From assembly GCA_020073585.1 (NCBI GenBank), contig JAIQEV010000001.1:95311-159310 (forward strand): a stretch of 64,000 nucleotides of DNA, in the 5' to 3' direction. The notes below the pieces were generated by a model. That model saw only the letters and a list, made by a program, of their open reading frames with translations, made no database searches and had not been told where the DNA came from. Below, in pieces: positions 21,186-48,632 of this stretch. The DNA comes from Terriglobia bacterium. GTDB lineage: Bacteria > Acidobacteriota > Terriglobia > Acidiferrales > UBA7541. The position numbers and the translations under genes are program-made. Position 1 is the first letter of the stretch, and each line of letters begins with the position of its first letter.

Positions 21186-22217
21186 TTAGGAGCGCTGCAC
21201 AGGGACCGCAGCGCGATACCACGCGATGAAATGTTTCAACCCCTCCGCAATTTGAGTTTTCGGCTGATAGCCGAGCAGCCGGCCAGCTTTGGAAATATCC
21301 GCCCAGGTCAGCGGCACGTCCCCCGGTTGCAGAGGCAACTGTTCACGGATGGCCCGGCGGCCTGTGGCCCGTTCCAGGTGTTCAATCAGCTCCGCTAGCT
21401 TGACCGGATGGGAATTTCCCAGGTTGAAGACTTCGAAGGGCACACGGGAGGGATCGCCGGGTTCGTAGGCGAGCGCCCCGAGAATCCCGCTCACGATGTC
21501 GTCCACATACGTGTAGTCGCGCCCCATCGAGCCATCGCCGAAGACCGGCAGCGGCTTGCCGGCCTCGATCAAGGCCGTGAATTTATGGATCGCCAGATCC
21601 GGCCGCTGCCGCGGTCCGTACACCGTGAAAAAGCGCAGGCAAATCGTGGAGAGCCGATAGAGATGAGCGTAGGTGTAGCAGAGCAATTCACCGCTGAGCT
21701 TGGTGGCCGCGTACGGGGAAATCGGGCGCAATTCGAAGTGGTCCTCGGAGAACGGAGCCACGCTCGTGGCTCCGTACACGGAGCTCGATGAGCCGAAGAG
21801 AAGCTTGCGAACTTGGAATTCGCGGCACAGTTCCAGGATGTTCGCGGTACCGGCCACGTTCACGCGCTCATACTCCAGAGGCTGTTCGATGGACGGGCGC
21901 ACGCCGGCAAGCGCCGCCAGGTGGATCACCGCCTGCGGGCGCACGCGGTTGAAAAGCTTGTGCATCTGCGCGTAATCGCGAATATCCGCTTCGAAGAATT
22001 CGTACTGGCCCACGCGCCGAATCTCCTCCAGATTCGCCCGCTTCCGGGCCGGCGAGTAAAACTCGTTCAGGTTGTCGACGATGGCCAGGGGCGTCCCGCG
22101 GCGGAGCAATGCCTCCGCCAAATGCGAGCCGATAAATCCGGCCCCGCCGGTCAGCAGCACTTTGTCTGGAGCGAGAGTCACGGTTTCTCCTTGTTTGGCC
22201 GAGTCCGTCATAAACAA
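21186..22217 (-). CDS. NAD-dependent epimerase/dehydratase (UDP-glucuronate 4-epimerase-like)
   Basis: 'VLLTGGAGFIGSHLAEALLRRG', 'SPYAATKLSGELL' YxxxK. Confidence 0.9.
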   Translation of the reverse strand: MFMTDSAKQGETVTLAPDKVLLTGGAGFIGSHLAEALLRRGTPLAIVDNLNEFYSPARKRANLEEIRRVGQYEFFEADIRDYAQMHKLFNRVRPQAVIHLAALAGVRPSIEQPLEYERVNVAGTANILELCREFQVRKLLFGSSSSVYGATSVAPFSEDHFELRPISPYAATKLSGELLCYTYAHLYRLSTICLRFFTVYGPRQRPDLAIHKFTALIEAGKPLPVFGDGSMGRDYTYVDDIVSGILGALAYEPGDPSRVPFEVFNLGNSHPVKLAELIEHLERATGRRAIREQLPLQPGDVPLTWADISKAGRLLGYQPKTQIAEGLKHFIAWYRAAVPVQRS

Positions 22218-22220
22218 GCG

Positions 22221-22874
22221 TCAACGCGGGATGGTTCTGTCCAGCAAAGGCAGAAGCTGGTGGATAAATTCCAGTCCTCCCGCCAGTGCCGCCCCTTCGC
22301 CATCCGCGCCGGCGATGGGAATCACGACGCGCACCAGCGCGCCGTCCGTACGGTTCAGGCGGATGGCATCGGTGACCAGGAAGATCTTGGCCCAGTATTC
22401 ACTCGGGGTGACGCGGCCATGCGCTTGATACCAGTAGAAAACCAAATCCCGGCTCGTTCCCTTGGCGACGATGTACCGGTTGATGGAAATCGCCGAGCCA
22501 TCGGCGCGCGGCACGGAGATGCGGCCGGACTGAATCGGGGCCCATCCGGAGCCTGGAATGCAATTCTTGGGCGAGTGAATCGTGTCGCCGGAGCGCTGCG
22601 AGGGGAAAAAGGCGATAAAGAGGTTTACCGGCGGCTCCGCGGCCGCACTCGCATAGTCCCGCAGCAGGAATTGGCCCGGCCCCAAGACCTCCAGCTCCCC
22701 GGGAGTCAGGGTTAAATCTCTTGCCTGCCAGCTCTTAATTTGCATTGGGAGGGAGGAGAGATCCTGGCGCTCGGGGAGAACTTCGTTACGGTCCCGAGCC
22801 TGCAAGAATGCGGCGGCCGCGGCGAGGATCAGAGCGGCGGGAAGAAAACGCTGCCAGGAGCTTAAGCGGCGCAT
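22221..22874 (-). CDS. epsI: EpsI-family exosortase-associated protein
   Basis: 'HSPKNCIPGSGWAPIQSG' EpsI signature; 1-nt overlap with the exosortase gene. Confidence 0.88.
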   Translation of the reverse strand: MRRLSSWQRFLPAALILAAAAAFLQARDRNEVLPERQDLSSLPMQIKSWQARDLTLTPGELEVLGPGQFLLRDYASAAAEPPVNLFIAFFPSQRSGDTIHSPKNCIPGSGWAPIQSGRISVPRADGSAISINRYIVAKGTSRDLVFYWYQAHGRVTPSEYWAKIFLVTDAIRLNRTDGALVRVVIPIAGADGEGAALAGGLEFIHQLLPLLDRTIPR

Positions 22875-23779
22875 CAGGTGTTCCTCGCCGGCAAGCGGCG
22901 GCCGAGCCAGGACACGGCCGCGTGAAACAGCAGCAAGAGGCTGAAGGAAACGCAGAAAATCAGCAGCCCGGAAAACATGTGGAAGAAACCCTCGGCCTTC
23001 TCGGGACTCCAGTATTCGCCGAGAATTCCGCTGCCCATGATGCGGAATCCATTGGCGAGGACCGCGATGGGAACGGCGGACAGAATCAGCAATGCACGGC
23101 GGACGAGGCGCGGCTCGAACAGATAGGCATAAATGACGGCCAGGGTCAGAAGCGATACGAGAGAGCGCAAGCCGCTGCACGCTTCCACGACGTCGAGCGT
23201 GAGCGAAGGCAGGTGAATCACGTTGCCTTCCCGCAGGACCGGAATCCCCGCCAGCGAAAGCAAGCCGCTGGCGAGTCCCGAAGCCTGAAACTGCAGGGGC
23301 AGGGCAATCTGGTTGAAGATGATGGCGGGGAGGGGAATCATCAGGAAGAGGATCACCCAGGGGAAAAGCCAGGCGCGGAACAAACCCCAACCCCGGAAAT
23401 AAATGACCAAACCCGCAAGCAGAAATAGCAGCGAAGTGCGGGAGAGGAAATTTTCCGCCCCTAATACGCCCAGGACAAGAATGGACAGTGCTCCGAGGAT
23501 GACCAGGAGGCCGGTCCAGCTTCCCTTCGCCGGGGCCTTGGCCAGATGCTCTCTCTCCCTCCAAATGACCCAGGCGCAGAAAAAAGGAATAAAAAAGCCA
23601 TGGGAGTAATTGGGGTCCTGCAACCACTGCGCGACGAGACCAGCAAGGATGCGGTAGTAGAGAAAAACGACCAGAGCCGCAAGAACCGCGAGCTGCAGCA
23701 GCCCGTGCAGGTCCAGGGCGATGCCCCTAGACGCCGCGGGGGCACGACCTTCCATGAGTGGATCCGTCGGCTTGTGCAT
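22874..23779 (-). CDS. xrt: Exosortase (EpsH/Xrt family)
   Basis: Multi-TM; catalytic triad region 'EACSGLRSLVSLL' (Cys), 'VLANGFRIMG' (Arg), 'FHMFSGLLIF' (His). Confidence 0.93.
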   Translation of the reverse strand: MHKPTDPLMEGRAPAASRGIALDLHGLLQLAVLAALVVFLYYRILAGLVAQWLQDPNYSHGFFIPFFCAWVIWREREHLAKAPAKGSWTGLLVILGALSILVLGVLGAENFLSRTSLLFLLAGLVIYFRGWGLFRAWLFPWVILFLMIPLPAIIFNQIALPLQFQASGLASGLLSLAGIPVLREGNVIHLPSLTLDVVEACSGLRSLVSLLTLAVIYAYLFEPRLVRRALLILSAVPIAVLANGFRIMGSGILGEYWSPEKAEGFFHMFSGLLIFCVSFSLLLLFHAAVSWLGRRLPARNT

Positions 23780-24173: not shown

Positions 24174-25415
24174 CTAGTGCGGCCCACCTGCTCTGGCGGG
24201 CTTAGTCAGTCCAAGCTTACCGCCAAACCACGTCAGAAAGCGCCGTAGAAGCCCCCCAAGCATGTATTCGAAGGGTCTGAGGTCATCCATAGCGAACCAG
24301 GCGGTCTCCTGAACCCCACGGAAGGAGCGCAGCCATTCCAGGAAGCTCAGCTTTCCATCCCGGTGGTAGTCGTGGAAGGAGATCAGGTCACCGTCTTCGA
24401 CCATCCATTTGCGGCCCTCGCAAGGGGGCGCCGAGGGAACCTTCTGTCCGGTCAGGTCCAGGTACATGGCGCGCACCACATCCATGCCATTCGTCGCCAG
24501 GAAGAGGCGGAACGTTGCACCCACCCGGGGATTGATATCGAGGATTTTGTACTGACCGTCGCGGGCATCGTAGCGGTGGCCGATATCCAGAACACCCCGG
24601 TAACCGATGGCCTTCATGAAATCCTTGGTGGTTTTCTCCACCACGTCGTTGCGCCGGCAGATTCCGAGCGAAGTCGCGCCGGTGTAGACGGGGTGCTGCC
24701 GGATCTTTTGGCCCGCAAAACCCAGCAGACAATCCGAGTTTGCATTGAAGTAGCCGTTGAACATCCAGACCGAGTCGTCTCCGCCGGGAATATATTCCTG
24801 AAGCATGAGGCTGGGATGGGCCGGATCTTCGATCCGGTCATATTGTTCCAGCAACTCTTGCGGATTCCGGACGATGACCATGCGCGGCTGGCCACGGCGT
24901 TCCAACGCCGTCCCGTCAATGCCTTTGAGCATGATGGGGAAGTGCGCCGCGTCGCTTTCCAGAAAGTCCAGGACATCGCGCCGCGACTGCGGGAAGGCCG
25001 TCTCGGCGGTGGGGATGCCGTGCTTCTTGCAGAGAAAATACATCTGTTTCTTGTCGCACAGGGCATACACGAGCTCGCGGGAAATATCGGGAAAGAGAAA
25101 CGCATCCCTCAGGGAACCGGCATTCTCGGCGATAAAGGTGCTGGAAATATCGTTGGTGCAGGTCAGGATCGGACGCAGCCCGATCTTGCGGGAAACTCCG
25201 CGCAGAAATTCCACGAGCTCTTCCGCGCAAGCGAGATTCCCGTTCATGATGAATTTTTCGCGGCAATAACGGGAGACCATCCCGGGAGAGCGAAGCTGAT
25301 TTCCGACGCCGTAGACACGGACGCCCAGGCGCCCCAGGCTTCGCACGAGACACAGGGAGCCGTGATGATCCGGCCGGAGAACGACTACGGGGACTGAGGT
25401 GTCAAATGTTTGCAT
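24174..25415 (-). CDS. ATP-grasp domain ligase
   Basis: 'PVVVLRPDHHGSLCLVRSLGRLGVRVYGV', 'HFPIMLKGIDGTAL', 'LMLQEYIPGGDDSVWMFNGYF', 'ILDINPRVGATFRLF' ATP-grasp signatures. Confidence 0.85.
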   Translation of the reverse strand: MQTFDTSVPVVVLRPDHHGSLCLVRSLGRLGVRVYGVGNQLRSPGMVSRYCREKFIMNGNLACAEELVEFLRGVSRKIGLRPILTCTNDISSTFIAENAGSLRDAFLFPDISRELVYALCDKKQMYFLCKKHGIPTAETAFPQSRRDVLDFLESDAAHFPIMLKGIDGTALERRGQPRMVIVRNPQELLEQYDRIEDPAHPSLMLQEYIPGGDDSVWMFNGYFNANSDCLLGFAGQKIRQHPVYTGATSLGICRRNDVVEKTTKDFMKAIGYRGVLDIGHRYDARDGQYKILDINPRVGATFRLFLATNGMDVVRAMYLDLTGQKVPSAPPCEGRKWMVEDGDLISFHDYHRDGKLSFLEWLRSFRGVQETAWFAMDDLRPFEYMLGGLLRRFLTWFGGKLGLTKPARAGGPH

Positions 25416-26199
25416 TCAGCTGCGGCTCGAGGGTTTTCGGCTCCAGGTATCCGCCGGCGGGCTTGTGCAAACTGGGTTCGCCAGGAAGCATCACGACTTC
25501 GTCGCCTCGCAGCTCGAATACCGACGGGAGATCATCCAGGTGCGCAAGGATGAAGTCCAGATCGCGAAGCTGTCCGCTTCTCCGCAGGTACGCCACGCTG
25601 TTGCTGACCAGGAAGGCTTCCACCGGCGCGCTTCTCCAGCGCTCGATGATTTCCGCGGTTTGCTCGTTGGCGGGGGTGTAACCGGCCTGCAGGAGGCCGC
25701 GCGCAATCCATGCGCAGCACAATTGGTCTTCCTCGCGGAATTCGCCCCGCGTGCCTGCTCCGATCAGGGCGACCTGCGGATGATGCTTGATCAGGTGTTC
25801 CAGCTGGGCGGTGAAATTCCGCAGACAGGCCACGTAGCAAGCGGCGCTGCCCATGGCCGCGGTGAGAATCCTGGTGCCCGAACTGGAAAGAAGGACTATG
25901 GGCCGGTGCAGCTCGTCTTCCTGCGCTATCTGGGCCGGACTGTTGGCGATCTCATAGCCATCGGGCAAATCGCCGCCCTGTTCGCCAACCATCAGGGGAT
26001 GATCCAACCTGGCGGCAAGCGCCAGACCGCTTTCCACGGTGGAAACGGGGAAACACTTGCGACCCATGGCCACGGCTGTCACTGCGGTCGTGGTCGCCCG
26101 GATCACATCAATGGCGACGATGGCGCAGACGTCCTTGTAGCGTTCCACGTTTTCGGCGAAGCAATCGATGACAACCGTTCTGGGAACTTGTGAATCCAT
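25402..26199 (-). CDS. comB: 2-phosphosulfolactate phosphatase (ComB)
   Basis: 'VAIDVIRATTTAVTAVAMGRKCFPV', 'GEQGGDLPDGYEIANSP', 'LLSSSGTRIL', 'GAGTRGEFREEDQLCCAWIA' ComB-family motifs; 14-nt overlap with the ATP-grasp gene. Confidence 0.87.
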   Translation of the reverse strand: MDSQVPRTVVIDCFAENVERYKDVCAIVAIDVIRATTTAVTAVAMGRKCFPVSTVESGLALAARLDHPLMVGEQGGDLPDGYEIANSPAQIAQEDELHRPIVLLSSSGTRILTAAMGSAACYVACLRNFTAQLEHLIKHHPQVALIGAGTRGEFREEDQLCCAWIARGLLQAGYTPANEQTAEIIERWRSAPVEAFLVSNSVAYLRRSGQLRDLDFILAHLDDLPSVFELRGDEVVMLPGEPSLHKPAGGYLEPKTLEPQLNANI

Positions 26200-26219
26200 A
26201 TTCGCCTCGAGTCGCCTCT

Positions 26220-27065
26220 TCAGGCCGGACGGCGGGGCCGCAGGTTGTCCTTCGCAAATGCGTCGGAATGCAGGCCGCGCCGGTAGATTTCGACGCGCAG
26301 CACTTCTTCCAGCCGCACGTTGCAAAGATGAACTTCCCGTCCGAAGTGGTCCAGAAGCGCGAACTGACTGGGCTTGTTGGGCGCTTCGAAGATGACCGTT
26401 TTAAAACCAAAGGTATTCGCGAAGCGATCGGCATAAACGGCGTTGAAGTTCCCCTGGTCATCGAACAGACCCACGCCCCGGGCGCTCTCCCGGGCTTCCA
26501 CGACCAATTGCAAAGCTCCGGCATCGAGCCAGCGCTTGCCTTGTTCGATCAACTGGCTGATCACTTCTTCCGTGAAAGCTCCGGTGTGCTTCTTTCCCAA
26601 TTCAAACTGCACCTGGAGTCCCCGCTCGTGCGCCATCTTGACCACATCGGAGGCCTTCAAGGGCATGTCCGTAAAGCCTTCTCCGCACTCAATCCGCGTC
26701 ACCCCGATGTCCGCGCAAAGATCCAGATAGGCGGGAAGCTGACCTTGCGCCACGGCGACCTCAAACGGCCCGCCTCCCGTCACCGTCGGCACGCGATACT
26801 TTTTTGCGGCGGCAATCTTGCGCCGCGTGGCCGCTTCTTTGGCGATGATCCAGCAGGCCATGGAAATTTTCAGAAGCGACATCAAATGGGAACTTTGATC
26901 GAGATGGCTCTCCAGCGTGACCGGGTCATATCCCGGATCGAAGGGGCTGGTCGCCGGAGCAATCTCCGGCACGCCGATCTTCCGCAAATAATCGCTGGTA
27001 TGTACCTTGCCCTCCGGAATTGCCTCGGCTGTTTCGACTACCGTTTCCAAGTTTTTGGCGATCAT
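26220..27065 (-). CDS. comA: Phosphosulfolactate synthase (ComA)
   Basis: 'IGVPEIAPATSPFDPGYDPVTLESHL', 'TVTGGGPFEVAVAQGQLPAYLDLCADIGVTRIECGEGFTDMP', 'VQFELGKKHTGAF'; directly upstream of comB. Confidence 0.87.
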   Translation of the reverse strand: MIAKNLETVVETAEAIPEGKVHTSDYLRKIGVPEIAPATSPFDPGYDPVTLESHLDQSSHLMSLLKISMACWIIAKEAATRRKIAAAKKYRVPTVTGGGPFEVAVAQGQLPAYLDLCADIGVTRIECGEGFTDMPLKASDVVKMAHERGLQVQFELGKKHTGAFTEEVISQLIEQGKRWLDAGALQLVVEARESARGVGLFDDQGNFNAVYADRFANTFGFKTVIFEAPNKPSQFALLDHFGREVHLCNVRLEEVLRVEIYRRGLHSDAFAKDNLRPRRPA

Positions 27066-27487: not shown

Positions 27488-29242
27488 CTAATTCGGGCGT
27501 GCGGCCGTGGGAGGAGGAAGGAGATAGACGTAATAACCGGTATTGCCGATTGGCTGCCAGGCGCTCGCGGATGTCGCCCTAGGAACCTCATTGGCCACAA
27601 TCGCCCGAACTCCAATCCTGGCGCAAATTGCGTACACATCCGACTGAATTTGAGGACCTGCGGCCCAGAAAGTCCCCACATCGCTGGAAGGAATCTCCGC
27701 GACGATCTTGAGCCGCGCCGTGCGCGCCCAATGATTGTTGTAACCGGCCCCCAGTGACGCAACCTTGTCTCCTTGCTGGAGTCCGAAATGGCGCAGCCCG
27801 TCGGCGATTTGCCACGAGAGGTTAACGGACCGATCTTTCCACTCGTAGATGCGGATCGCCATTTTTTCGGCGACGGAAAGTGAAAGCAGAAGAACCGCCA
27901 CGATAGTCACGCCGGCAAGCAGTTTCTTGGACTGTTCGGAGCGGGGCAAGCGGATCGCAGAAAGCAGCGCGGCCCAAAGCATGAGGAGGAGCCCCGCAAC
28001 GTATCGGGGCTCCACGGTAACCAGCGCATATAAGCCAAAGCCCGCCGCTGCGGGGATCCACAGGTGCCAGTTTTCGCCAAAGCGCCTGACAAAGCTGGAG
28101 CCGCTCAACAAGATGAGAATTAGCGCACACGCGATGAGCCCGCTCTGAGGAAGAAAGAGCGCATCGTAGGAGGCATAGATGCTGGTCATGATCACCCGGA
28201 GCTGCTGCTGGAAATGAAAGTGGGGTGTGAGGCCGTCGTTCCAATAGGAGGGATCGTAGTGCGGCGGATAGGTCCCCGAAACGGGACTGGCGTATTCGTA
28301 GAGAGCAGGGGCGGAATGAATCTTTCTGGTTGTATGCCGGGGAACACCGCCTGCAGGATCCGCGCCTTGCCAGTTGAAAAACGGAGCGCTGCGGTTGACG
28401 ACCCAGGCGTATCCGAGCCGGCCACTTTCGCCGAATGTGAACCGTCCTTTGCTCCGGGAGATGAGAAAGATGAAGGGTGTGGTAACCAAAAGGAACGCTA
28501 GAAGCGCGGCGAGAAGGCGCGTTACCGCTTTCCGGCGATCTCGGAGAGCAAGAAAACTCACTCCCAGAAACACGAAACCCAGCAGGAACATCACCGTTTT
28601 GCCCAAATAGCCGAGTCCGAGAACGAATCCAAAGAAAAAGAACAATCCGATGTTCGCGTTGCCTGCGCGAATGCGGACCAGGATGGCGGCGATCATATAG
28701 ACCAGCGCAGCCACAAGCAGGTCCGGGGTGATTTGGGAAACGACGGTGGCGTTTGCAATGGTCCAGATAAACAAGGCGTAGCCCAGGGCCAGCCAGGCCC
28801 AGCGGGGGAAGGTTTCCGAAGGCGTGTCGGAGGGCGCAGAAGCAGCATGGATGTAGCGTTCGCCCTGCGCACGCCAGAACCTGTCGAAAGCAGCCAAAGC
28901 GATCAGGAAGACCGCGAAATTAATGAGCTGAATCGCGGGGAACTCCCAGAATGCAGAGGGCTTCAGAATGCCCAGGTCGAGAGCCAGCACCCAGGAATAG
29001 AGCGGGCTCCAGTAGGCATTGAGCGCGGCGGACCAGCGCCCATGGAGATAACTGTCGGCGATGTCCAGATAGGAGATCCCGTCCGGATTCATGCTGAAAC
29101 GCGCAGACCACGTCAAAAACGCGGCCACGAAGACAGCCGCGCACCAGGAAAGAAGCCGCACCCGATGCGCGGCCCTATCCTCCGGCTGAGCGCCAGCTTC
29201 AGCCGGCGTTGTGTCGTGATCCTGCGCTGGTCTTTCCGTCAT
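27488..29242 (-). CDS. Multi-TM GT39/ArnT-like membrane glycosyltransferase
   Basis: 'RFSMNPDGISYLDIADSYLHGRWSAALNAYWSPLYSW' GT-C-like N-terminal loop, many hydrophobic segments. Confidence 0.7.
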   Translation of the reverse strand: MTERPAQDHDTTPAEAGAQPEDRAAHRVRLLSWCAAVFVAAFLTWSARFSMNPDGISYLDIADSYLHGRWSAALNAYWSPLYSWVLALDLGILKPSAFWEFPAIQLINFAVFLIALAAFDRFWRAQGERYIHAASAPSDTPSETFPRWAWLALGYALFIWTIANATVVSQITPDLLVAALVYMIAAILVRIRAGNANIGLFFFFGFVLGLGYLGKTVMFLLGFVFLGVSFLALRDRRKAVTRLLAALLAFLLVTTPFIFLISRSKGRFTFGESGRLGYAWVVNRSAPFFNWQGADPAGGVPRHTTRKIHSAPALYEYASPVSGTYPPHYDPSYWNDGLTPHFHFQQQLRVIMTSIYASYDALFLPQSGLIACALILILLSGSSFVRRFGENWHLWIPAAAGFGLYALVTVEPRYVAGLLLMLWAALLSAIRLPRSEQSKKLLAGVTIVAVLLLSLSVAEKMAIRIYEWKDRSVNLSWQIADGLRHFGLQQGDKVASLGAGYNNHWARTARLKIVAEIPSSDVGTFWAAGPQIQSDVYAICARIGVRAIVANEVPRATSASAWQPIGNTGYYVYLLPPPTAARPN

Positions 29243-29422: not shown

Positions 29423-30508
29423 TCACGTTCGGCGACCGAGGAACGTACATTCCAATTTCCACAAGAATTCTTCTTTGTCGTGGGGTACGGCGACCCGTTG
29501 CAAAGCTAGCGGGTTGTTCCCGAACTGGACGGGGCCCGCCATCGAGGTCACCGCCGTCTGATACCCGGCCTCTTTTGTGACCTCCACAGTCTGCTCCGTC
29601 CAGTGTGGCTGCAGGATTGGCGAGGGATAGGAGAAGTGCGGCACAGGACTGCCCAGCTCTTCCTCGAGTCTGCGTTTCGATTCAACGCATTCCTTTTGAA
29701 ATTCCGCTATTGCCACTTGAGCGGCATTCGGATGCGTCAACGTATGAGACCCCACGATATGGCCCGAGCGCCGCAGACAGCGAACCTGCTCCCAATTCAT
29801 CATGCGAACATCCCGTGGGCTCAGCGGTTCGACTTCCAGCTCCTCCTCCAGTTTCCTGATGTGTTTCTCTTGAGTCTCGCCCGTGCTGCTGGCACAACGT
29901 CCCGCTGCAATCAGGAAGGCGACTTTTCGCGTCCTGGGTTCCACGAGATCACGTACGCAACCTTCCGTGGAATCTGTCCACGTTTTTTTGGCAGTTTTGC
30001 CAAAAGCATGACGGAGGCGGCAAAACCACGGAGCCCGGACCAGATCCACGGCACTCACCGTCACGTAGAAGGCGGCGGGCACCCCAAGGCTGTTCAGGAT
30101 CGGAGCGGCAAGTTCAGAATTGTCCGCGTAACCATCGTCAAATGTGACGGCAACCGGCCTTCGCGGCAGTCGTTTATCCCCGCGCAAAAAAAGCAAGACG
30201 TCGTCGAGCGTCACGGGATCGAATTTGCGGGCCACGAGCTCCATCTGTTCCGCAAAAACAGCCCTACCGTGAATGATGCCTGAGCCGATCGAATTCTCAT
30301 AGCGCTCCGGTTCATCCTGAATGGAGTGGTACTTCAGGATGACGATCCGCTGGGACGCAAATCTTGCAACGAGACGCAACAAACCATTCTTCGTCAGCGC
30401 GTTCTTGATGTGGTGCTTCAAGCTGGAGTTGCCGTTCACGGGACTCCTAAACCTCCGGCCGGAAAAACACGCCACGGCCCGGTCCTGCGGAGGGCAAAAA
30501 ACGCACAA
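29423..30508 (-). CDS. Polysaccharide deacetylase family protein
   Basis: 'PVAVTFDDGYADNSELAAPILNSLGVPAAFYVT' and 'HIVGSHTLTHPN' NodB-like motifs; start codon uncertain. Confidence 0.85.
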   Translation of the reverse strand: MCVFCPPQDRAVACFSGRRFRSPVNGNSSLKHHIKNALTKNGLLRLVARFASQRIVILKYHSIQDEPERYENSIGSGIIHGRAVFAEQMELVARKFDPVTLDDVLLFLRGDKRLPRRPVAVTFDDGYADNSELAAPILNSLGVPAAFYVTVSAVDLVRAPWFCRLRHAFGKTAKKTWTDSTEGCVRDLVEPRTRKVAFLIAAGRCASSTGETQEKHIRKLEEELEVEPLSPRDVRMMNWEQVRCLRRSGHIVGSHTLTHPNAAQVAIAEFQKECVESKRRLEEELGSPVPHFSYPSPILQPHWTEQTVEVTKEAGYQTAVTSMAGPVQFGNNPLALQRVAVPHDKEEFLWKLECTFLGRRT

Positions 30509-31893: not shown

Positions 31894-32826
31894 TTATGCT
31901 TGGTTCTCTTGCAAACCGCCGCTCCGAGCATTCTGAGGCCGCTTCCTGGCGAGCACCAGGAATTGCGCACCAGTCGAGCGAAGGACGGGGCAGCGCATAT
32001 CCACGAAGCGCTGCAGAACACGATGTACGGCCACGCCCAGCCACTCCGGCAAGACCTTGCGGTAAAAGAAAGTAAAGGGCCCGAAACCCAGGGTCTCCGT
32101 GCGCACACGCTCGAGTCCCGCACCGGCGAAGAATGCGTCCACTTCGGACAAGGAATGCTGATAGGAACGAACTACGTTCGCCATCGGTGCGGGCTGGCTG
32201 GCGATCCCAAGAATCTTCTTGAGTGTTTGCCGGGTCCAGGCCAGGAAAGGTGACGTGACGGGGTCCAGCAGAAGCGCCAGACGCCATCGGTTGTCTGCGG
32301 TGAGCAGAAGGTATCCCCCCGGCTTCAGGACGCGCGCAAGTTCTGTAATCGCTTGCGCGGGCGACTGCAGCCACGGGATCACTCCGATCGAGAGCACCAG
32401 GCCAAACGCTTCATCTGAAAAAGCCAGATGATAGACGTCTCCCAGATTCGCATTCACACGGCTCCCGACGCCGGCCTCCGCGGCATTTTGGCGGGCGAGT
32501 TCAATCATGGGGGCAGCGGCATCCACCGCTTCTACGAAGTATCCCCGTTTTGCCAGGGCTACCGTCGCCAATCCAGCTCCGCACCCGACCTCCAAGACTT
32601 GTCTGTCCGTTGGCAACTTTAACTTATCTATCCACGCGAGAAACCTCGCCAGTCGCTGCTGGTGGATTTCCCCCCACAAATCCTGGCGGTGATACATAGT
32701 TTGCCAGTTGAGTGCTGAGGACTCGAAGTAAGCGACTGCCTTCTTGTCCTCAAGACTTGCTGAAGGCAACCTTCCCAAGAGTCCCCCTTCACAGCGATTC
32801 ACTGGGCCCTTAACCCCTTCCAGCAT
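31894..32826 (-). CDS. Class I SAM-dependent methyltransferase
   Basis: 'VLEVGCGAGLATVALAKRGYFVEAVDAAAPMIELA', 'VLKPGGYLLLTADN'. Confidence 0.88.
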   Translation of the reverse strand: MLEGVKGPVNRCEGGLLGRLPSASLEDKKAVAYFESSALNWQTMYHRQDLWGEIHQQRLARFLAWIDKLKLPTDRQVLEVGCGAGLATVALAKRGYFVEAVDAAAPMIELARQNAAEAGVGSRVNANLGDVYHLAFSDEAFGLVLSIGVIPWLQSPAQAITELARVLKPGGYLLLTADNRWRLALLLDPVTSPFLAWTRQTLKKILGIASQPAPMANVVRSYQHSLSEVDAFFAGAGLERVRTETLGFGPFTFFYRKVLPEWLGVAVHRVLQRFVDMRCPVLRSTGAQFLVLARKRPQNARSGGLQENQA

Positions 32827-33375: not shown

Positions 33376-34428
33376 TTGTCGGCATCAACGAAATTCGGTT
33401 ATCCCGCGATCTTGAAGGAACCGTTGCCTGATGCGGTGCTTTTTGGCCGAACAACGGCCATGCAGATAGTCCGCAACAAGGTCGAGAAACTCGCTGGTGC
33501 AGACGTGCCTGTCCTGATTCAGGGAGAGAGCGGAACGGGGAAAGAAGTATTGGCCGCGGCGATTCACCGTCGTTCCTGCGGCCAGAATCAACCTTTCATC
33601 AAGATCACCTGTCCCGCGATTCCTGCGGCCCTTCTGGAAAGCGAGCTTTTTGGCTACGAAAAGGGGGCCTTCACCGGAGCGAATGTTGCGAAGCCGGGCC
33701 GGGTAGAACTGGCGCATGGGGGCACCCTGTTTTTGGACGAGATTGCCGAGTTGGATCCGGCCCTGCAAGCCAAATTCTTGCAATTGTTGCAAGACGGCCA
33801 ATTCAGCCGGATTGGCGGTCAGGAAGACAAGACCGTGGAGGTTCACCTGATCTGCGCCACCAATCGGGATCTGGAAACGGAGGTCCAGGCCAAGCGTTTC
33901 CGCCAGGATCTTCTCTATCGGATCAACGTGTTCACGATTCATTTGCCGCCGCTTCGTCAGCGTCTGGAGGATATTCCCGAGCTGGCTGACCATTTGCTGC
34001 GGCTGTACAGCGCCATGTACAGCACCGCGCCCGGTCCCTTGTCCGCGGAACTCCTGCAACTGATGCAGAAGTACCACTGGCCGGGAAACATTCGGGAACT
34101 GGATAATCTGGTGCGGCGCTATGTAATTTTGGGTTCGGAGCAAGTCATCGGAAGCGAACTCCTGACAAGAACCCTCGCGGAGGTGATTCCCGAGGAACCC
34201 GAGGGCGGAGAGATCTCCCTGAAAAAATTGTCACGGCAGGCCGCCCGGGAATTGGAGCGGCGGATCATCCTGAAAGCGCTGGAAAGCAACGGATGGAATC
34301 GCAAACTGGTGGCGCGCAGCCTGAACATCAGCTATCGCGCGCTCCTGTACAAGATCAAGCAGGGTGGGATGCCTCCCAAGCGCAGTTTGCCCTCGAGAGC
34401 GCCGGAGCGGGTCCCGCCGGAAGACTGA
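33376..34428 (+). CDS. Sigma-54-dependent transcriptional activator without receiver domain
   Basis: 'GESGTGKEVLAAAIH', 'YEKGAFTGANVAKPGRVELAHGGTLFLDEIAEL', 'NISYRALLYKIKQGG'; TTG start with upstream GGAG. Confidence 0.92.
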   Translation: MSASTKFGYPAILKEPLPDAVLFGRTTAMQIVRNKVEKLAGADVPVLIQGESGTGKEVLAAAIHRRSCGQNQPFIKITCPAIPAALLESELFGYEKGAFTGANVAKPGRVELAHGGTLFLDEIAELDPALQAKFLQLLQDGQFSRIGGQEDKTVEVHLICATNRDLETEVQAKRFRQDLLYRINVFTIHLPPLRQRLEDIPELADHLLRLYSAMYSTAPGPLSAELLQLMQKYHWPGNIRELDNLVRRYVILGSEQVIGSELLTRTLAEVIPEEPEGGEISLKKLSRQAARELERRIILKALESNGWNRKLVARSLNISYRALLYKIKQGGMPPKRSLPSRAPERVPPED

Positions 34429-34499: not shown

Positions 34500-36089
34500 A
34501 TGGACGATTTTAACGAAGCGAAGCCGTTTGACACGAAGCTGTATTGGGATATCGCGATCCGCAGGCGCTGGTGGCTGCTGGGGCCGTTATTCGGAATCGG
34601 CTTGATTGCCTTTGGCGTGGCGCTGCTATGGCCCCCGGTCTACCGTTCCGAAGCGCTGATCTTGGTGGAACAGCAGAAGGTTCCGGCCAAGTATGTGACG
34701 CCCAACGTGGTGTCCGACCTCGATAGCCGCCTGCAAAGCATGACCCAGCAGATCATGAGCCGGACGCGTCTGGAAAGCCTGATCAAGCAATTCAACTTGT
34801 ATTCCCGGGAACGCACCCGCTCGACCATGGACGAGATCGTGGACAAGATGCGCGGAGACATCGTGATTCAGGCGGTGCAGCCGGGATACGGAAAAGAAGA
34901 TCAGACCACCGCATTTCGTATCTATTACTCCGCGGAAGACTCGCGGATCGCGCAGCAAGTGAATAACGAGCTGACTTCGCTCTTCATCGAGAAGAGTCTC
35001 GAGGCCCGTGCCCAGCAATCCATCAACACGACCGGTTTTCTCCAGAATCAGCTGGAACAGGCGCGCAAGGATCTAGCGCAGCAGGAAGAACAGTTGCGCC
35101 AGTACAAGATGCGCTACCTGGGAGAGCTTCCTCAGCAGGAACAGAGTAATCTGCAGATTCTGAACAGCCTGGAACTGCAATTGCAATCGGCCACGGACGC
35201 GCTGGGCCGAGCCGAACAGCAGAGAATCTACCTGCAATCGCTGCGTTCGGAGTATCGAGCCATGACGGAATCCGCCGGGAAAGGCGGGCTGACCGGCCCG
35301 TCTCCCACCGAAAGCGTCCCGGATGCCGCGCTGCGGGAGCTGCGCAAGCAGCAGGCCGAGCTCGAGGCAAAGTACACGCCCCAGCACCCGGACGTCGTGC
35401 GGGTCAAAGAGCAGATTGCGCAATGGGAAGAGCTCAAGAAGCGCGCGGAAAAACCCTCACCGGCCTCCGCGGGTCAGCAGACGGAAACGGCGACCGAGAT
35501 CAGCGGCCAACCGGCGCTCGCCGAAGTGGAGAGCCGCCTGAAGGCCATCGAAGCGGAGATCTCGAATAACAAGCAACATGCGGAAAAACTCCGCAAGCAG
35601 ATCGAGGGAGTGCAGGGGCGCCTGAGCCTCACGCCGGTGCGGGAGCAGCAGCTTGCCGAGGTCACGCGGAATTATCAGAACTCGCGCCAATACTACCAAT
35701 CCTTGCTGGAAAAGGAGCTGGAGTCGGAGCTGGCCACCAACCTGGAAAAACGCCAGGAAGGCGAGCAGTTCCGGATCATTGATCCCCCCAGCCTGCCCGA
35801 TAAGCCGTACAAGCCCAACCGCCCGATGATCATCCTCGGGGGCTGGCTCATCGGATTCTGCGCTGGTGCGGGCCTGCTGGCCTTGCGGGAATTCATGGAC
35901 GGTTCCCTGCGCGGCGAAAAAGATCTGCAAGCGCAAACGTCACTGCCTATCTTGGTCCGCATCCCGGTCATGTACTCGGCGTGGCAGCGGAAGTCCGGGA
36001 GGATGCGCTTGGTGATGGAAGTAGCCATTTTGGCCTTGTTGACGGTGGTTTCCTTGGGAGTTGCGATTTATACGTATCGGTTGAGTTGA
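34500..36089 (+). CDS. Wzz/GumC-type polysaccharide chain-length determinant protein
   Basis: TM-flanked coiled-coil protein; 'YWDIAIRRRWWLLGPLFGIGLIAFGVALLWPPVYRSEALILVEQQ', 'PSLPDKPYKPNRPMIILGGWLIGF'. Confidence 0.9.
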   Translation: MDDFNEAKPFDTKLYWDIAIRRRWWLLGPLFGIGLIAFGVALLWPPVYRSEALILVEQQKVPAKYVTPNVVSDLDSRLQSMTQQIMSRTRLESLIKQFNLYSRERTRSTMDEIVDKMRGDIVIQAVQPGYGKEDQTTAFRIYYSAEDSRIAQQVNNELTSLFIEKSLEARAQQSINTTGFLQNQLEQARKDLAQQEEQLRQYKMRYLGELPQQEQSNLQILNSLELQLQSATDALGRAEQQRIYLQSLRSEYRAMTESAGKGGLTGPSPTESVPDAALRELRKQQAELEAKYTPQHPDVVRVKEQIAQWEELKKRAEKPSPASAGQQTETATEISGQPALAEVESRLKAIEAEISNNKQHAEKLRKQIEGVQGRLSLTPVREQQLAEVTRNYQNSRQYYQSLLEKELESELATNLEKRQEGEQFRIIDPPSLPDKPYKPNRPMIILGGWLIGFCAGAGLLALREFMDGSLRGEKDLQAQTSLPILVRIPVMYSAWQRKSGRMRLVMEVAILALLTVVSLGVAIYTYRLS

Positions 36090-36172: not shown

Positions 36173-37054
36173 GTGAGCCGGATATTTGACGCACTGCGCA
36201 GGTCGGAGCAAGAGAAGAGCGGGAAAGGCTCGTCCACGCCCTGGACAAAGAGCCTTTCGGCAGAACAGCCGAGGGTGTCCCTGGACAACCTTCCTGCCGG
36301 ATTCGAAGGTGTCCAGCGGGTGGCCCTGCGCATCCCGCCGGAGAAGCACATCGTAACCTGTGGTGACAATCTGAGTCCGGGAGCGGAACGCTTCCGAGTC
36401 TTGCGCCATCGTCTGCAGAGGATCCGGGCAGATCGCCCACTCAACAAGCTACTGGTCTCGAGTGCCGTTCCCCGAGAGGGGAAGACCCTGGTGGCCATCA
36501 ATCTGGCGTTCAGCCTGGCGCGAACCTCGCGGCGGGTCCTGCTGATCGACGCGGATTTGCGGCATCCCAGCGTTCACGAAGTTCTTGGGATCCAGGCCAT
36601 GCCCGGCCTGGCTGAAGTTCTGCATTGCGAAATCGATGCGCGAAGTGCGATTCGGTGCCTGGACCCGGGGAATCTTTATTACCTGCCCGCGGGCCGTCCG
36701 CCGGCGAACCCGGGTGAATTGCTGCAGGAACCTCTGTTGGGGGAATTGATGAAGGAGGGGCTTAACGCGTTTGACTGGGTGGTGGTGGACTCCGCGCCGA
36801 TTACGCTTTTTGCGGACACGCCGCATCTGGCCGGGCACGTTGACGGCACGGTGTTGGTGACGCGCGTGGGGGTCACGCCAGCCGACGCGGTGCAGTCCGC
36901 ACTGACCGCAATCGAGGGAAACTTCGTTGCCGGAGTGGTGCTGAACGGTGGTTCCAACCCCAGCAATGGGCACTACGATAACTACTATGGCGATGCTGCC
37001 GATCGGAATATCTATTTCCAGTCCGAACCGGAAGCGGGAAACGAGAAGAGTTGA
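36173..37054 (+). CDS. CpsD/CapB-type bacterial tyrosine kinase
   Basis: 'LLVSSAVPREGKTLVAINLAFSLARTSRRVLLIDADLRHPS' Walker A/A'; C-terminal tyrosine cluster 'GHYDNYYGDAADRNIYF'. Confidence 0.9.
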   Translation: MSRIFDALRRSEQEKSGKGSSTPWTKSLSAEQPRVSLDNLPAGFEGVQRVALRIPPEKHIVTCGDNLSPGAERFRVLRHRLQRIRADRPLNKLLVSSAVPREGKTLVAINLAFSLARTSRRVLLIDADLRHPSVHEVLGIQAMPGLAEVLHCEIDARSAIRCLDPGNLYYLPAGRPPANPGELLQEPLLGELMKEGLNAFDWVVVDSAPITLFADTPHLAGHVDGTVLVTRVGVTPADAVQSALTAIEGNFVAGVVLNGGSNPSNGHYDNYYGDAADRNIYFQSEPEAGNEKS

Positions 37055-37058
37055 CGGC

Positions 37059-38450
37059 GTGGTTAAAATATTCGATGCCTACGTCCCGTTGCGCACGCTG
37101 CTCCTGGCAGTGTCGGAAACGATGCTTGTTTTCTGCGCGATGGTGGCGGCGGTTTTCCTGCGATTCGGCGTCGATGCCGAGCTGACGCTCAGCTATCAGC
37201 AGGGATTCCTGAAAGTGGCGATCGTTTGCGCCTTGCTCATCATGAGCCTTTACTATTTCGACCTTTACGATTCCCTCGTGCTCAGCAACCCCCGCGAGGT
37301 TTTGTCGCGCTTGATCGTTGTGCTGGGGGTGGTGTGCCTGCTCACGGCGTTTCTGTATTACATCTTTCCGCCGCTGCAGCTGGGGCGCGGAATTTTCATG
37401 ATTGGAATGGTTCTCGTCGGCATTTCCCTGACGGCCTCGCGCGAACTCTTTTTCGCCCTGAATCGCTCCTCCCGCTTTGCCGATTCGACGATCCTGCTGG
37501 GGGATGGCCCGCTGGCCCGGTCGCTGGCCGCGGAAATCACCCCTCGTCACGAACTGGGGATGCGTCTGGTCGGCTACATCGGAATGTCGTCGCACGCGGC
37601 TCCCGGCCTGAATGGGCTGCCGCTGCTCGGAAAGCCGGAGGATCTCGGCACGCTGATCGCCGAGAAACACATTAAACGGATCATTGTCGCGCTGCAGGAC
37701 CGCCGCAGCACGATGCCGGTGCGGGAACTGCTGGCTCTGCGCTTGAAAGGATTTCAGGTCCAGGACGGAGGCAGTCTGCTCGAAAGAATCTCGGGGAAAA
37801 TCGAGGTCGATCAACTGCACCCCAGCTGGCTGATCTTCTCCAGCGGATTTCGGCTGCAGCCATCCGTTCTCCTGGTGCAGCGGTTAATGGCGATTGTCGT
37901 TTCTCTGGTCCTCTTGCTGGCCGTGTTGCCGCTGGTTCCCATCATCGCCCTGTTGATCAAACTCACTTCCCGAGGGCCGGTGTTCTACCGCCAGAAGCGC
38001 GTGGGGAAGAACGGCAGCGTGTTTTATTGCTACAAATTCCGGACGATGCGGGCCGACGCCGAGGCGGACACCGGTCCGACGTGGGCCAGCGACAGCGATC
38101 CGCGCATTACGCCCGTGGGGCGTTTTCTGCGCGTCGCGCGTCTCGATGAAATCCCTCAGCTCTGGAACGTGTTTCGCGGGGACATGAATTTCGTGGGTCC
38201 TCGCCCCGAACGGCCGGAATTCGATGCTTCGCTCAAGCAGGGAATCCCGTACTACTACTTGCGCCAGATTGTTCGCCCTGGGATTACCGGGTGGGCGCAG
38301 ATCAATTGCGGTTATGGTGCGTCGTTGGAGCAGTCCAAGGAAAAGATGCGCTACGACCTCTATTACATCAAGAACATGTCGCTGGCCCTCGACCTGCTGA
38401 TTGTCTTTCAAACGGTCAAGACCGTGCTTTTCGGGCGAGGCGCAAGGTGA
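37059..38450 (+). CDS. Exopolysaccharide polyprenyl glycosylphosphotransferase (exosortase-system EpsB2-like)
   Basis: 'KLTSRGPVFYRQKRVGKNGSVFYCYKFRTMRADAEADTGPTWA', 'RLDEIPQLWNVFRGDMNFVGPRPERPEF'; GTG start at 37059. Confidence 0.92.
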   Translation: MVKIFDAYVPLRTLLLAVSETMLVFCAMVAAVFLRFGVDAELTLSYQQGFLKVAIVCALLIMSLYYFDLYDSLVLSNPREVLSRLIVVLGVVCLLTAFLYYIFPPLQLGRGIFMIGMVLVGISLTASRELFFALNRSSRFADSTILLGDGPLARSLAAEITPRHELGMRLVGYIGMSSHAAPGLNGLPLLGKPEDLGTLIAEKHIKRIIVALQDRRSTMPVRELLALRLKGFQVQDGGSLLERISGKIEVDQLHPSWLIFSSGFRLQPSVLLVQRLMAIVVSLVLLLAVLPLVPIIALLIKLTSRGPVFYRQKRVGKNGSVFYCYKFRTMRADAEADTGPTWASDSDPRITPVGRFLRVARLDEIPQLWNVFRGDMNFVGPRPERPEFDASLKQGIPYYYLRQIVRPGITGWAQINCGYGASLEQSKEKMRYDLYYIKNMSLALDLLIVFQTVKTVLFGRGAR

Positions 38451-39774: not shown

Positions 39775-42700
39775 ATGGCCGCTAACCCAATTCGGATCCT
39801 GCACCTCATCGCCAGCAATTTTGTCGGCGGGCCCGAGAAACAGATTCTGCACCATGCCGTGGATGTTCGCGAGGCGGGCTGCGAAGTGTGGGTGGGTTCG
39901 TTCCGGGACCAGCCGGAAAAGGCGGAGATTCTCGTAAGCGCTCAGGAGCGCGGGCTCCCCACCTACGAATCTCGCTCTTCCGGCCGCTTCGACCCGCGCG
40001 CCGTTCGCGAATTGGCCTCTTTCCTCAAGCGCGAACGCATTCAATTGCTGTGCACGCACGGCTTCAAGGCCAATACCATTGGCGTGCTTGCCAAGAAGCT
40101 GACGGGCGTTCCGCAGATCGCCTTCTGCCGGGGTTGGACGGCGGAAACGCCGCGCGTCCGGGCGTATGAGTTCCTCGAACGCTGTTTGCTTCCTTTTGCG
40201 AACCGCGTTGTGTGCGTCTCGGAGGCGCAAGCAAAGCTTCTGGCTCGAAATCGCCGGTTCCGGCCGCGTCTTGCCGTGGTCCAGAACGCCATGCTGGAAA
40301 CCGCGAGCGCCGCGTCCGTTGCTGATCGCGCGGCGCTGAAAGCGCAACTCGGCTTCTCTCCGCAAACCCGCTTGATCGGCGCCATCGGCCGGCTCAGCGT
40401 TGAAAAGGGACAACGGTATCTCGTCGAGGCGGCGGCGGAACTCGCGCGCGATTTCCACGACCTGAAAATCGTCCTTCTGGGAGAAGGCCGCGAGCGCGCG
40501 GCCCTCGCGGCGCAAATCAAGCAGCTCGGTCTGGACGGGGTCGTGCTCCTGCCGGGCTTTCAGAAGAATATTGCGCTTTGGATGCAGGCTCTCGATGTCC
40601 TGGTGAATTGTTCGCTGACGGAAGGGCTTCCCAACGTGATTCTGGAGGCCCTCGCGGCGGAGACTCCGGTCGTGGCCACGGCTGTTGGGGGCGTGCCGGA
40701 ACTGATTCGCGACCGGGAAACCGGCCTCCTGGTGCCGGCGGCGAATCCCGCCGCGCTGGCCCGCGCCCTGGCCATGGTCTTGCGCGATACCCAGCTCGCT
40801 GACGCCTTGCGCCGGAGTGGCCGCGCATGGGTGCAGACGCGCTTCTCGCCTGCTCGACAGCGGGAATCCCTGCTGGCGATCTACCGGCAATGCCTCGGTC
40901 TTCGGCCTGTCTCCTCGGCGCCGTCGGAGCAGAACGAGATACAGGAGCGCGCAGCGCTCCCTGCGGAGTCACTTCCGTTCATCTCCGTGGTTCTCCCGGT
41001 GCGCAATGAGGAGGCACATCTGGGCGCCGTGCTCGATAGTCTGCTCGCGCAGGAGTATCCGCGGGACCGCTACGAAATCTTGGTCGTGGATGGCAACTCG
41101 ACCGACGGCACCGCGCGTGTCGTGGAAGAGGCCGCAAAGGCCTCGGCCGTGCGTATTCGACTGCTCCCCAACCCGCGCCAAATATCGGGTGCCGGGCGTA
41201 ACGTGGGCGTGCGGAACAGCGTAGGTGAGCTGATTGTCTTCATCGACGGCCACTGCTGGATACCCAGCCGCGAACTCCTGCTGAATACGGCCCGCCTATT
41301 CGAGACCACAGGCGCCGCCTGCCTTTGCCGGCCGCAGCCTCTCACGGCGCCCGGCAGCACCTGGTTCCAGAAAGTCGTGGCTGACGTGCGCGCGACGGCG
41401 ATCGGCCATGGCCTCGACTCGGCTATCTATTCCACGGAGCTCGAGGATTACGTCAATCCGACCAGCTCCGGTGCAAGCTACCGCCGCTCGGTTTTCGACC
41501 ACGTGGGTTTCTACGACGAACGGCTCGACGCCTGCGAGGACGTGGAGCTTAACTACCGGGTGTTCCGTGCCGGCCTGCGCTCGTACACCAGTCCGCGTCT
41601 GACCGTGCAATACGCGCCGCGGAAGACGTTTTCGGGGCTCTGGAAGCAGATGGTTCGCTACGGCAAGGGACGCTATCGCTTCGCCGGAATCCATCCGGAA
41701 GCATTTTCCTTCGCGCAGGCCGTGCCCGCTGCGTTCTTGTTGTGGCTGGCGCTGGGCGGGGCAGGCGCTCTCGTCTCGCGGCCCTTGGCAACGTTCTTTT
41801 TGGCAACCCTGGCTGTCTACGCCGGGATTGTGGCCGCTTCCTCCGTTTGGCTTGGGATTCGGCAGGGCTGGCGCCACATGGTTACGGCGCCCGCCGTCTA
41901 CCTGACGATTCATCTTGGACTCGGGGCCGGTTTTCTGACGGAAGCTGCCCGGTCGATCCGGCAGCGATTTTCTTTCCGGCGTGCGACGCAGGAAGTGTCC
42001 AGCGCTAGCGCAGAGGGGGCTTCGTTTCCACGGGTCCGGATTCTGCGCGAGTCCGGGCAGGACGCGCCATCCGGCAACCACGGAACGCACCGCAGCAAGA
42101 CCACACCGATGAACGCCTTCAGCGTGGACGTGGAGGACTATTTCCATACCGAGGCGATGAGCGGCGTGGTGTCGCGTGAAGCGTGGGAGCAGATGCCTTC
42201 ACGAGTGGAAAACAATACCCATCGCTTGTTCGAATTGCTGGCCAAGCACGATGTGCGCGGCACCTTCTTCTTCCTGGGCTGGGTCGCGGAGCGTTTTCCG
42301 GGTCTTGTGCGCGAGGCGGTACAACTGGGCCATGAAGTGGGTTGCCACAGTTATTGGCATCGCCCGGTCTATCGCCTCTCGCCGGCTGAGTTTCGTGCCG
42401 ATACGCGGCAAGCGCTGAAGGCCATCGAAGATGCGGGAGGCGTTGGTGTGCGCGGATATCGCGCGCCGAGCTTTTCCATGGTGCCGGGCACCGAGTGGGC
42501 GGCCGAGATTCTCGTCGAACTGGGCTTCTACTACGACTCCAGCGTTCACCCGATTCGCCACGATCTGTATAGCAACGCTTCCGCGCCGCGCATTCCGCAC
42601 CGCGTCCATGGCGGCGCGATTCTGGAACTGCCCATCGCCACCATGCGGGTGGCGGGCAATAATCTTCCCGTCGGTGGCGGCGGCTACTTCCGGATTCTTC

Positions 42701-43047
42701 CGTACGCCTATACGCGCTGGGGCTTGTCCCGCTTGAACGGGCGGGAATCTCAGCCCGGTGTCGTGTATCTGCATCCGTGGGAGATCGACCCGGAACAGCC
42801 GCGGCTCGCCGCGGGTTTCAAGTCCCGTTTCCGCCAGTACACCGGCCTGGCCGGTGCCGAGCACAAGCTCGATCGCCTGCTGCAGCGATTTTCCTTCGCG
42901 CCGATTTCCACGGTGTTCCGGCGTGAATTGTGCGAGGCGCTCGCGCCTGGCGGGAACAGCCGCGAGGAAAAAGCGGCGTTGGCGGGGAAGCCGAGTCCGG
43001 AACCTGCCGGGGTTCTAGGCTCCACGGATTCCAGGGGAGACGATTGA
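39775..43047 (+). CDS. Fusion: GT4 glycosyltransferase + GT2 glycosyltransferase + exosortase-system-type polysaccharide deacetylase (1090 aa)
   Basis: GT4 'ALDVLVNCSLTEGLPNVILEALAAETPVVATAVGGVPELI'; GT2 'ISVVLPVRNEEAHLGAVLDSLLAQEYPRDRYEILVVDGNSTDGTA'; deacetylase 'MNAFSVDVEDYFHTEAMSGVVSREAWEQMPSRVENNTHRLFELLAKHDVRGTFFFLGWVAERFPGLVREAVQLGHEVGCHSYWH'; one uninterrupted frame. Confidence 0.9.
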   Translation: MAANPIRILHLIASNFVGGPEKQILHHAVDVREAGCEVWVGSFRDQPEKAEILVSAQERGLPTYESRSSGRFDPRAVRELASFLKRERIQLLCTHGFKANTIGVLAKKLTGVPQIAFCRGWTAETPRVRAYEFLERCLLPFANRVVCVSEAQAKLLARNRRFRPRLAVVQNAMLETASAASVADRAALKAQLGFSPQTRLIGAIGRLSVEKGQRYLVEAAAELARDFHDLKIVLLGEGRERAALAAQIKQLGLDGVVLLPGFQKNIALWMQALDVLVNCSLTEGLPNVILEALAAETPVVATAVGGVPELIRDRETGLLVPAANPAALARALAMVLRDTQLADALRRSGRAWVQTRFSPARQRESLLAIYRQCLGLRPVSSAPSEQNEIQERAALPAESLPFISVVLPVRNEEAHLGAVLDSLLAQEYPRDRYEILVVDGNSTDGTARVVEEAAKASAVRIRLLPNPRQISGAGRNVGVRNSVGELIVFIDGHCWIPSRELLLNTARLFETTGAACLCRPQPLTAPGSTWFQKVVADVRATAIGHGLDSAIYSTELEDYVNPTSSGASYRRSVFDHVGFYDERLDACEDVELNYRVFRAGLRSYTSPRLTVQYAPRKTFSGLWKQMVRYGKGRYRFAGIHPEAFSFAQAVPAAFLLWLALGGAGALVSRPLATFFLATLAVYAGIVAASSVWLGIRQGWRHMVTAPAVYLTIHLGLGAGFLTEAARSIRQRFSFRRATQEVSSASAEGASFPRVRILRESGQDAPSGNHGTHRSKTTPMNAFSVDVEDYFHTEAMSGVVSREAWEQMPSRVENNTHRLFELLAKHDVRGTFFFLGWVAERFPGLVREAVQLGHEVGCHSYWHRPVYRLSPAEFRADTRQALKAIEDAGGVGVRGYRAPSFSMVPGTEWAAEILVELGFYYDSSVHPIRHDLYSNASAPRIPHRVHGGAILELPIATMRVAGNNLPVGGGGYFRILPYAYTRWGLSRLNGRESQPGVVYLHPWEIDPEQPRLAAGFKSRFRQYTGLAGAEHKLDRLLQRFSFAPISTVFRRELCEALAPGGNSREEKAALAGKPSPEPAGVLGSTDSRGDD

Positions 43048-48511: not shown

Positions 48512-48632
48512 GTGACATTTCGCCGCGCCAATTTCCAGAAGCATCCCGCACTTTACCTTTTGGGTGCGTGAACGGGTTGAAAAAGGCGAGTCTGTTTCCG
48601 TCTGCGCAAGAATCAGGGGTCCGCAGGAGAAT

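Follow-up and report, generated by a model that had tools for sequence, protein, structure and literature searches.

Sulfolactate and glycan-bound hydroxy acids are known from several bacterial and archaeal settings. In coenzyme M biosynthesis the pathway runs from ComA and ComB to ComC and ComDE. Spores of Bacillus form sulfolactate, and the Bacillus protein YitC is a ComA homologue. O-antigen amino sugars can be N-acylated by hydroxy acids, for example by 2,4-dihydroxybutyrate on the perosamine of Vibrio cholerae O1. Exopolysaccharide (EPS) loci of the XrtA/PEP-CTERM type have also been described (PMC1569441). Here, we examine a 64,000-nucleotide stretch from a Terriglobia bacterium (contig JAIQEV010000001.1, positions 95,311 to 159,310; hereafter 'the window'), in which a trio of genes encoding ComA, ComB and an ATP-grasp ligase sits in a full polysaccharide/exosortase locus of this acidobacterial genome. 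We propose that the trio forms the core of a module that makes sulfolactate and attaches it to a polysaccharide, a reading that we hold, taken as a whole, to be slightly better than an even chance.

The locus shares the first two enzymes of coenzyme M biosynthesis, with their catalytic positions kept, but differs in its lack of ComC and ComDE, in the presence of an ATP-grasp ligase in polysaccharide loci, and in a ComA that belongs to a separate clade. Its expected product is that of Bacillus spores, although here there is no link to sporulation, and a dedicated ligase and glycan genes are present. The proposed logic resembles that of O-antigen N-acylation, in that an amino sugar within a surface glycan would receive a 2-hydroxyacid in amide linkage; the hydroxyacid would however be sulfonated, its activation would proceed via an ATP-grasp ligase, and the acceptor is putative. 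As in XrtA/PEP-CTERM loci, EpsB_2 (TIGR03013), FemAB-XrtA (TIGR03019) and a DUF3473 deacetylase are encoded in many of the loci surveyed below, and an exosortase and EpsI in the window, yet an exosortase is often absent within 10 kb.

The enzyme families are known; the combination of the trio and its link to polysaccharide loci appear to be undescribed. Full-text searches of open-access papers, pairing sulfolactate with polysaccharide, exopolysaccharide, ATP-grasp or LarA or using sulfolactyl terms, returned no description, nor did we find one of a sulfolactate module in XrtA/PEP-CTERM loci. The initial annotation of the window likewise named no described EPS system of such design. A Bradyrhizobium mutagenesis paper that names both sulfolactate and exopolysaccharide concerns a transporter and not this locus.

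The family assignments of ComA and ComB, first made from the sequence alone, are upheld by profile searches, with the Pfam cut-offs (25.2 bits for PF02679 and 26.4 for PF04029) passed by far and the catalytic positions kept. Against the archaeal equivalog model TIGR03849, ComA scores 158.6 bits, under the cut-off of 280, and ComB likewise falls under the NCBIfam equivalog cut-offs. Judged by sequence, both proteins belong to their families but lie outside the archaeal core that has been characterised. Positions K43, E79, E103, E133, K137, E168, R170, E205, K209, E237, R240 and R241 of ComA (M. jannaschii numbering) are invariant in 57-58 of the 58 members of its clade, where the core positions are kept more strictly than in other acidobacterial ComA homologues. 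ComB is homologous to 1VR0, a structure with (2R)-3-sulfolactic acid bound. The third protein matches profiles as PRK12767-like at 45.7 bits, under curated cut-offs. An AlphaFold2 model built from 45 relatives has an ATP-grasp fold (mean predicted local distance difference test score 94), and its neighbours in fold comparisons are biotin carboxylase, PurK and L-amino acid ligase. Its nucleotide and metal residues are kept, with K122, K164, D293, N295 and R297 invariant across 45 sequences. The tight packing of the three genes on the minus strand was confirmed: comA and comB are separated by 20 nt, and comB overlaps the ligase gene by 14 nt. We took the ATG start of comB, as the longer TTG-start open reading frame (ORF) runs into comA.

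Distribution and genomic linkage of the trio

To survey the clade, 84,980 species genomes were scanned with two short ComA peptides, without regard to neighbouring genes, yielding 61 loci, of which 59 were usable once two contig-end fragments of the genome G018 had been left out. In every one of the 59, a comB gene lies no more than 3.5 kb from comA; the ATP-grasp gene is present within 4.5 kb in 53 of them, several of the exceptions being short contigs. Carriers are found in about ten phyla (Acidobacteriota, Ignavibacteriota, Pseudomonadota, Chloroflexota, Actinomycetota, Nitrospirota, Gemmatimonadota, Myxococcota, Thermodesulfobacteriota and Zixibacteria), with one further carrier on a short contig binned as Bathyarchaeota. 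Conservation of the trio across phyla excludes a chance arrangement. Most carriers are metagenome bins; one with a strain name, Bradyrhizobium elkanii WSM2783, has comA, comB, the ligase gene and the methyltransferase described below. In a tree, the 58 locus ComAs form a single clade (support 100/99) that excludes both M. jannaschii ComA and the other ComA types of the same phylum; the row L010_eps in this tree is a mislabelled copy from outside the clade.

The ligase is similarly specific. Among 396 genomes of the phylum and 61 closer relatives, its profile reaches 628-632 bits in three genomes only, always adjoining a clade ComA, and the next-best match anywhere is 242 bits. A sister ATP-grasp group (L153-L166, about 150-240 bits to the profile) has polysaccharide genes nearby in 9 of the 14 loci checked. 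Within the window's own genus the module is patchy, with a clade ComA in only 2 of 35 sampled congeners. One of these, G018, has ComA fragments at the ends of contigs, in two places, and lacks a 600-bit ligase, most likely because of an assembly gap. Plasmid carriage of the module was looked for, with no match.

Polysaccharide genes were counted with profiles built from the recurrent neighbours of the surveyed loci. The baseline was a set of 20 random 20-kb stretches taken from related genomes. One or more such genes are present in 47/59 loci compared with 2/20 of these stretches, and three or more in 28/59 compared with 1/20, corresponding to densities of 3.39 and 0.25 genes per 20 kb; the difference is somewhat overstated, since these loci also supplied the profiles. 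Comparison within the ComA family is the stronger control. In the 16 loci of other ComA types from the same phylum, these profiles detected no polysaccharide gene (0/16), the module profile recognised no comB, and no such ATP-grasp gene was found. The other acidobacterial ComA types (L118-L132) lie outside polysaccharide loci and have neither the module comB nor the ligase.

The recurrent neighbours are FemAB-XrtA, EpsB_2, the DUF3473 deacetylase, DegT aminotransferase, Wzy and Wzx, and XrtA-specific equivalogs are passed in loci other than the window. It had been suggested that comA-comB might recur with exosortase and EPS genes. Clade-specific recurrence with polysaccharide genes was borne out in about ten phyla, but the exosortase itself proved rare, being found within 10 kb in only four loci besides the window, and was rejected as an obligate partner. 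The association is thus with polysaccharide loci at large, in which XrtA-type marker genes are often present. The CapK-like adenylate-forming enzymes, initially considered as possible participants, were also set aside as a general partner: besides the window, three Nitrospira-type loci have them.

Proposed pathway and competing explanations

In the proposed pathway, ComA would join phosphoenolpyruvate and sulfite to give phosphosulfolactate, which ComB would dephosphorylate to (R)-3-sulfolactate. In some lineages sulfolactate would also be the substrate of a LarA-like nickel enzyme, which would act on its C2 hydroxyl and might isomerise it. The ATP-grasp ligase would use ATP to activate the carboxylate, most likely as an acyl phosphate, for coupling as an amide (or ester) to a polysaccharide precursor, most plausibly to an amino sugar or amino-acid substituent. 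The methyltransferase may finish the decoration or modify a neighbouring sugar, and the cell would secrete a polysaccharide decorated with a sulfonated hydroxy acid.

These steps differ in strength. From family membership and conserved residues, sulfolactate synthesis by ComA and ComB is very likely, with sulfite as the presumed nucleophile. Linkage suggests that sulfolactate is probably the ligase substrate, while its attachment to a polysaccharide is an evenly balanced proposition. The recurrence of deacetylases, DegT aminotransferases and FemAB-like transferases favours an amino-sugar acceptor, but an amide to an amino sugar specifically can be suggested only tentatively, and the acceptor may instead be an amino acid or a small molecule that stays free. 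The parts played by LarA and the methyltransferase are likewise putative. The broadest form of the proposal, a widespread class of bacterial exopolysaccharides bearing amide-linked 3-sulfolactate made by a dedicated trio, with an altered nickel-pincer enzyme acting on sulfolactate in some lineages, is conceivable but falls somewhat short of an even chance.

Sulfolactate is an organosulfonate that many bacteria degrade and for which few biosynthetic sources are known. If correct, the proposal would add both a source of sulfolactate and a new anionic glycan decoration in about ten phyla, many of them represented by soil and sediment lineages. It would further provide a route to sulfonated, as opposed to sulfated, glycans, and imply that soils and sediments contain a sizeable pool of C3 sulfonate that has gone unrecognised.

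Several observations weigh against polysaccharide decoration by sulfolactate. The neighbour profiles derive from the tested loci themselves, and in 12/59 loci, several of which are on short contigs, they detect no polysaccharide gene. An amino-sugar acceptor is indicated only by the deacetylases and aminotransferases close by, enzymes that loci of this kind often encode in any case, and we found no biochemistry for any member. The LarA-like enzymes do not have the canonical second histidine, the window copy having Asn-Asn in its place. Finally, clade-wide changes are seen in ComA at M. jannaschii S105 (to Gly) and G47 (to Ala), so that the nucleophile could differ. If clade ComA used a nucleophile other than sulfite, a different 3-substituted lactate would be dephosphorylated by ComB and coupled by the ligase. 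Besides the fixed S105G and G47A changes, clade-specific H138 and Y239 distinguish these proteins from other ComAs. Nonetheless, the acidic/basic core shared with M. jannaschii ComA is invariant, including K137, R170, K209 and R240, and the partner enzyme is ComB, which makes this explanation rather improbable.

The 12 loci with no polysaccharide gene would be accommodated if the product were a small sulfolactyl-amino acid or peptide, acting as an osmolyte, signal or protectant and not bound to a polymer, with envelope genes merely clustering nearby. Dipeptides are frequent products of ATP-grasp enzymes, the model has L-amino acid ligase as one of its neighbours in fold, and 13 loci encode a second ATP-grasp protein that resembles cyanophycin synthetase and N-acetylglutaminylglutamine synthetase. 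We nevertheless consider such a product unlikely, given the strong clade-specific enrichment of polysaccharide genes, which extends to whole Wzx/Wzy/XrtA loci, and the frequent proximity of related ATP-grasps outside the clade to polysaccharide genes (9/14). The accumulation of sulfolactate alongside ComA homologues in Bacillus spores raises the further prospect of a free storage or protective metabolite, or of a sulfite sink. Such a role would explain neither the almost constant presence of the ligase nor the polysaccharide context, both of which are missing from other ComA loci of the same phylum; we regard it as very unlikely. Synthesis of coenzyme M, whose archaeal pathway begins with the same two enzymes, is largely refuted and scarcely credible here. 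A search of the whole genome (96.7% complete), extending the earlier observation that comC and comDE are missing from the window, found no ComC-type dehydrogenase and no ComDE over the cut-off. Their absence makes coenzyme M synthesis unlikely, and the conserved partner of ComA-ComB is instead a ligase.

Variable partners of the module

Two types of module can be distinguished. One, found in Acidobacteriota, Ignavibacteriota, alphaproteobacterial and several Chloroflexota loci, includes an orthologous methyltransferase. Its orthologues are 33-48% identical, occur in about half of the loci and commonly lie directly upstream of comA or larA. The other, found in Nitrospira, Zixibacteria and deltaproteobacterial loci, includes the second, cyanophycin-synthetase-like ATP-grasp protein together with a distinct GT4 glycosyltransferase, often with FemAB-XrtA (TIGR03019, 339 bits). 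The methyltransferase (29 loci) and second ATP-grasp (13 loci) coincide in one locus only.

Sulfolactate is a 2-hydroxyacid. Members of the LarA superfamily are nickel-pincer nucleotide enzymes that isomerise 2-hydroxyacids (PMC7583248, PMC11770544), and LarA is encoded in 10 of 60 loci (window counted), covering both module types. The order methyltransferase-larA-comA also occurs in L021, L024 and, by position, on the G018 contig. Among 61 genomes the window LarA has a sole close relative (57% identity, 511 bits; next 147), encoded in G018 directly upstream of one of the ComA fragments at contig ends. The genome also encodes a homologue of LarC (506 bits), which functions in cofactor synthesis.

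The LarA-like proteins keep the first catalytic His (H108) and, in sequences covering them, the cofactor residues K184 and H200 (L. plantarum numbering). The H174 position is occupied by Gln or Asn, with a His one residue later in 8 of the 9 aligned copies (window, L021, L024, L042, L053, L054, L055, L063 and L069), as in the motifs YPQHTTGF and YPNHTAGF. With the second His absent or shifted, these enzymes, and the window copy in particular, are doubtful racemases, and we rejected LarA as a plain sulfolactate racemase. Proteins with the shifted His possibly represent a distinct LarA subfamily. For LarA homologues with Asn at His174, structures are known but the reaction is not (PMC12611868). 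The proteins described here share with these single-His enzymes the change of His174 to Asn or Gln and the retained cofactor residues. They differ in that most copies have a His one position later, that sequence similarity to the solved Asn-type proteins is weak, and that the context is polysaccharide synthesis and not glycolysis. The module offers a candidate pathway and substrate for an uncharacterised type of LarA.

A mandelate-racemase/enolase-superfamily gene (galactonate-dehydratase-like) is present in L022, L027, L028, L029, L032, L033 and L039, all loci that lack LarA and most of them proteobacterial, where it usually lies immediately downstream of the ligase gene. It was discarded as a replacement racemase, its best models being sugar-acid dehydratases. 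The ten LarA loci and seven loci with this gene do not overlap, which is not significant at these numbers. A family of proteins of about 465 aa also recurs by the module (L014, L020, L026, for example L026:12932-14329, L029 and L031); one member searched had no Pfam, NCBIfam or PDB sequence match.

Surroundings of the trio in the window

Profile matches verified the exosortase/EpsI, deacetylase, glycosyltransferase, Wzy, Wzx, Wzz-like and PaaK/CapK-like genes reported around the trio. The initial inventory overlooked the LarA-family gene and the orthologous methyltransferase, as well as the other kind of module with its second ATP-grasp.

Table 1. The trio and its surroundings in the window, in order of position.
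Feature	Position	Strand	Evidence
NAD-dependent sugar epimerase/dehydratase	21186..22217	-	PF01370, 205 bits
EpsI / DUF3485, exosortase partner	22221..22880	-	PF11984, 180 bits
Exosortase, EpsH family	22874..23779	-	PF09721, 250 bits
ATP-grasp ligase, proposed sulfolactate-amine ligase	24174..25415	-	AlphaFold2 fold; 53/59 loci
ComB, 2-phosphosulfolactate phosphatase	25402..26199	-	PF04029, 120.8 bits; ATG start
ComA, (2R)-phospho-3-sulfolactate synthase, polysaccharide-linked clade	26220..27065	-	PF02679, 161.9 bits
584-aa multispan membrane protein, perhaps PMT-kind glycosyltransferase	27488..29242	-	Repeated hydrophobic stretches in translation; membership by position only
Polysaccharide deacetylase, NodB type	29423..30508	-	PF01522, 72.5 bits
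LarA-like nickel-pincer-nucleotide enzyme, proposed to act on sulfolactate	30545..~31850 (start approximate)	-	PF09861, 123 bits
SAM-dependent methyltransferase of module	31894..32826	-	Methyltransf_11
Sigma-54-dependent regulator, AAA part	33376..34428	+	NifA, NtrC and PEP_resp_reg models, matches under cut-offs
Wzz/GNVR chain-length protein	34500..36089	+	PF13807 and PF02706
Polyprenyl glycosylphosphotransferase (priming transferase)	36948..38450	+	PF02397, 226 bits
GT4 + GT2 + polysaccharide deacetylase (DUF3473), single frame	39775..43047	+	Profile matches
Wzy-type polymerase/ligase	42930..44351	+	PF04932, 80.8 bits
Two PaaK/CapK-like adenylate-forming enzymes	44348..45823, 45828..47258	+	Mutually homologous
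Wzx-type flippase	48564..50237	+	PF01943, 47.7 bits

The 584-aa membrane protein has no match in Pfam or NCBIfam, and the second of the PaaK/CapK-like proteins is homologous to phenylacetate-CoA ligase structures. We rejected a connection of the regulator to the operon through sigma-54 promoters, as the -24/-12 elements gave 30 matches compared with 33 expected from shuffles. A search of the genome for PEP-CTERM target proteins gave one match over the cut-off. As parts of an XrtA/PEP-CTERM locus, the exosortase, EpsI, priming transferase, Wzz and Wzy are all found in the window. The exosortase and EpsI are two separate genes, a 468-aa ORF in this region being composed of EpsI plus out-of-frame sequence. 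The long GT4/GT2/DUF3473 frame (1090 aa) is either a true fusion or two or three genes run together.

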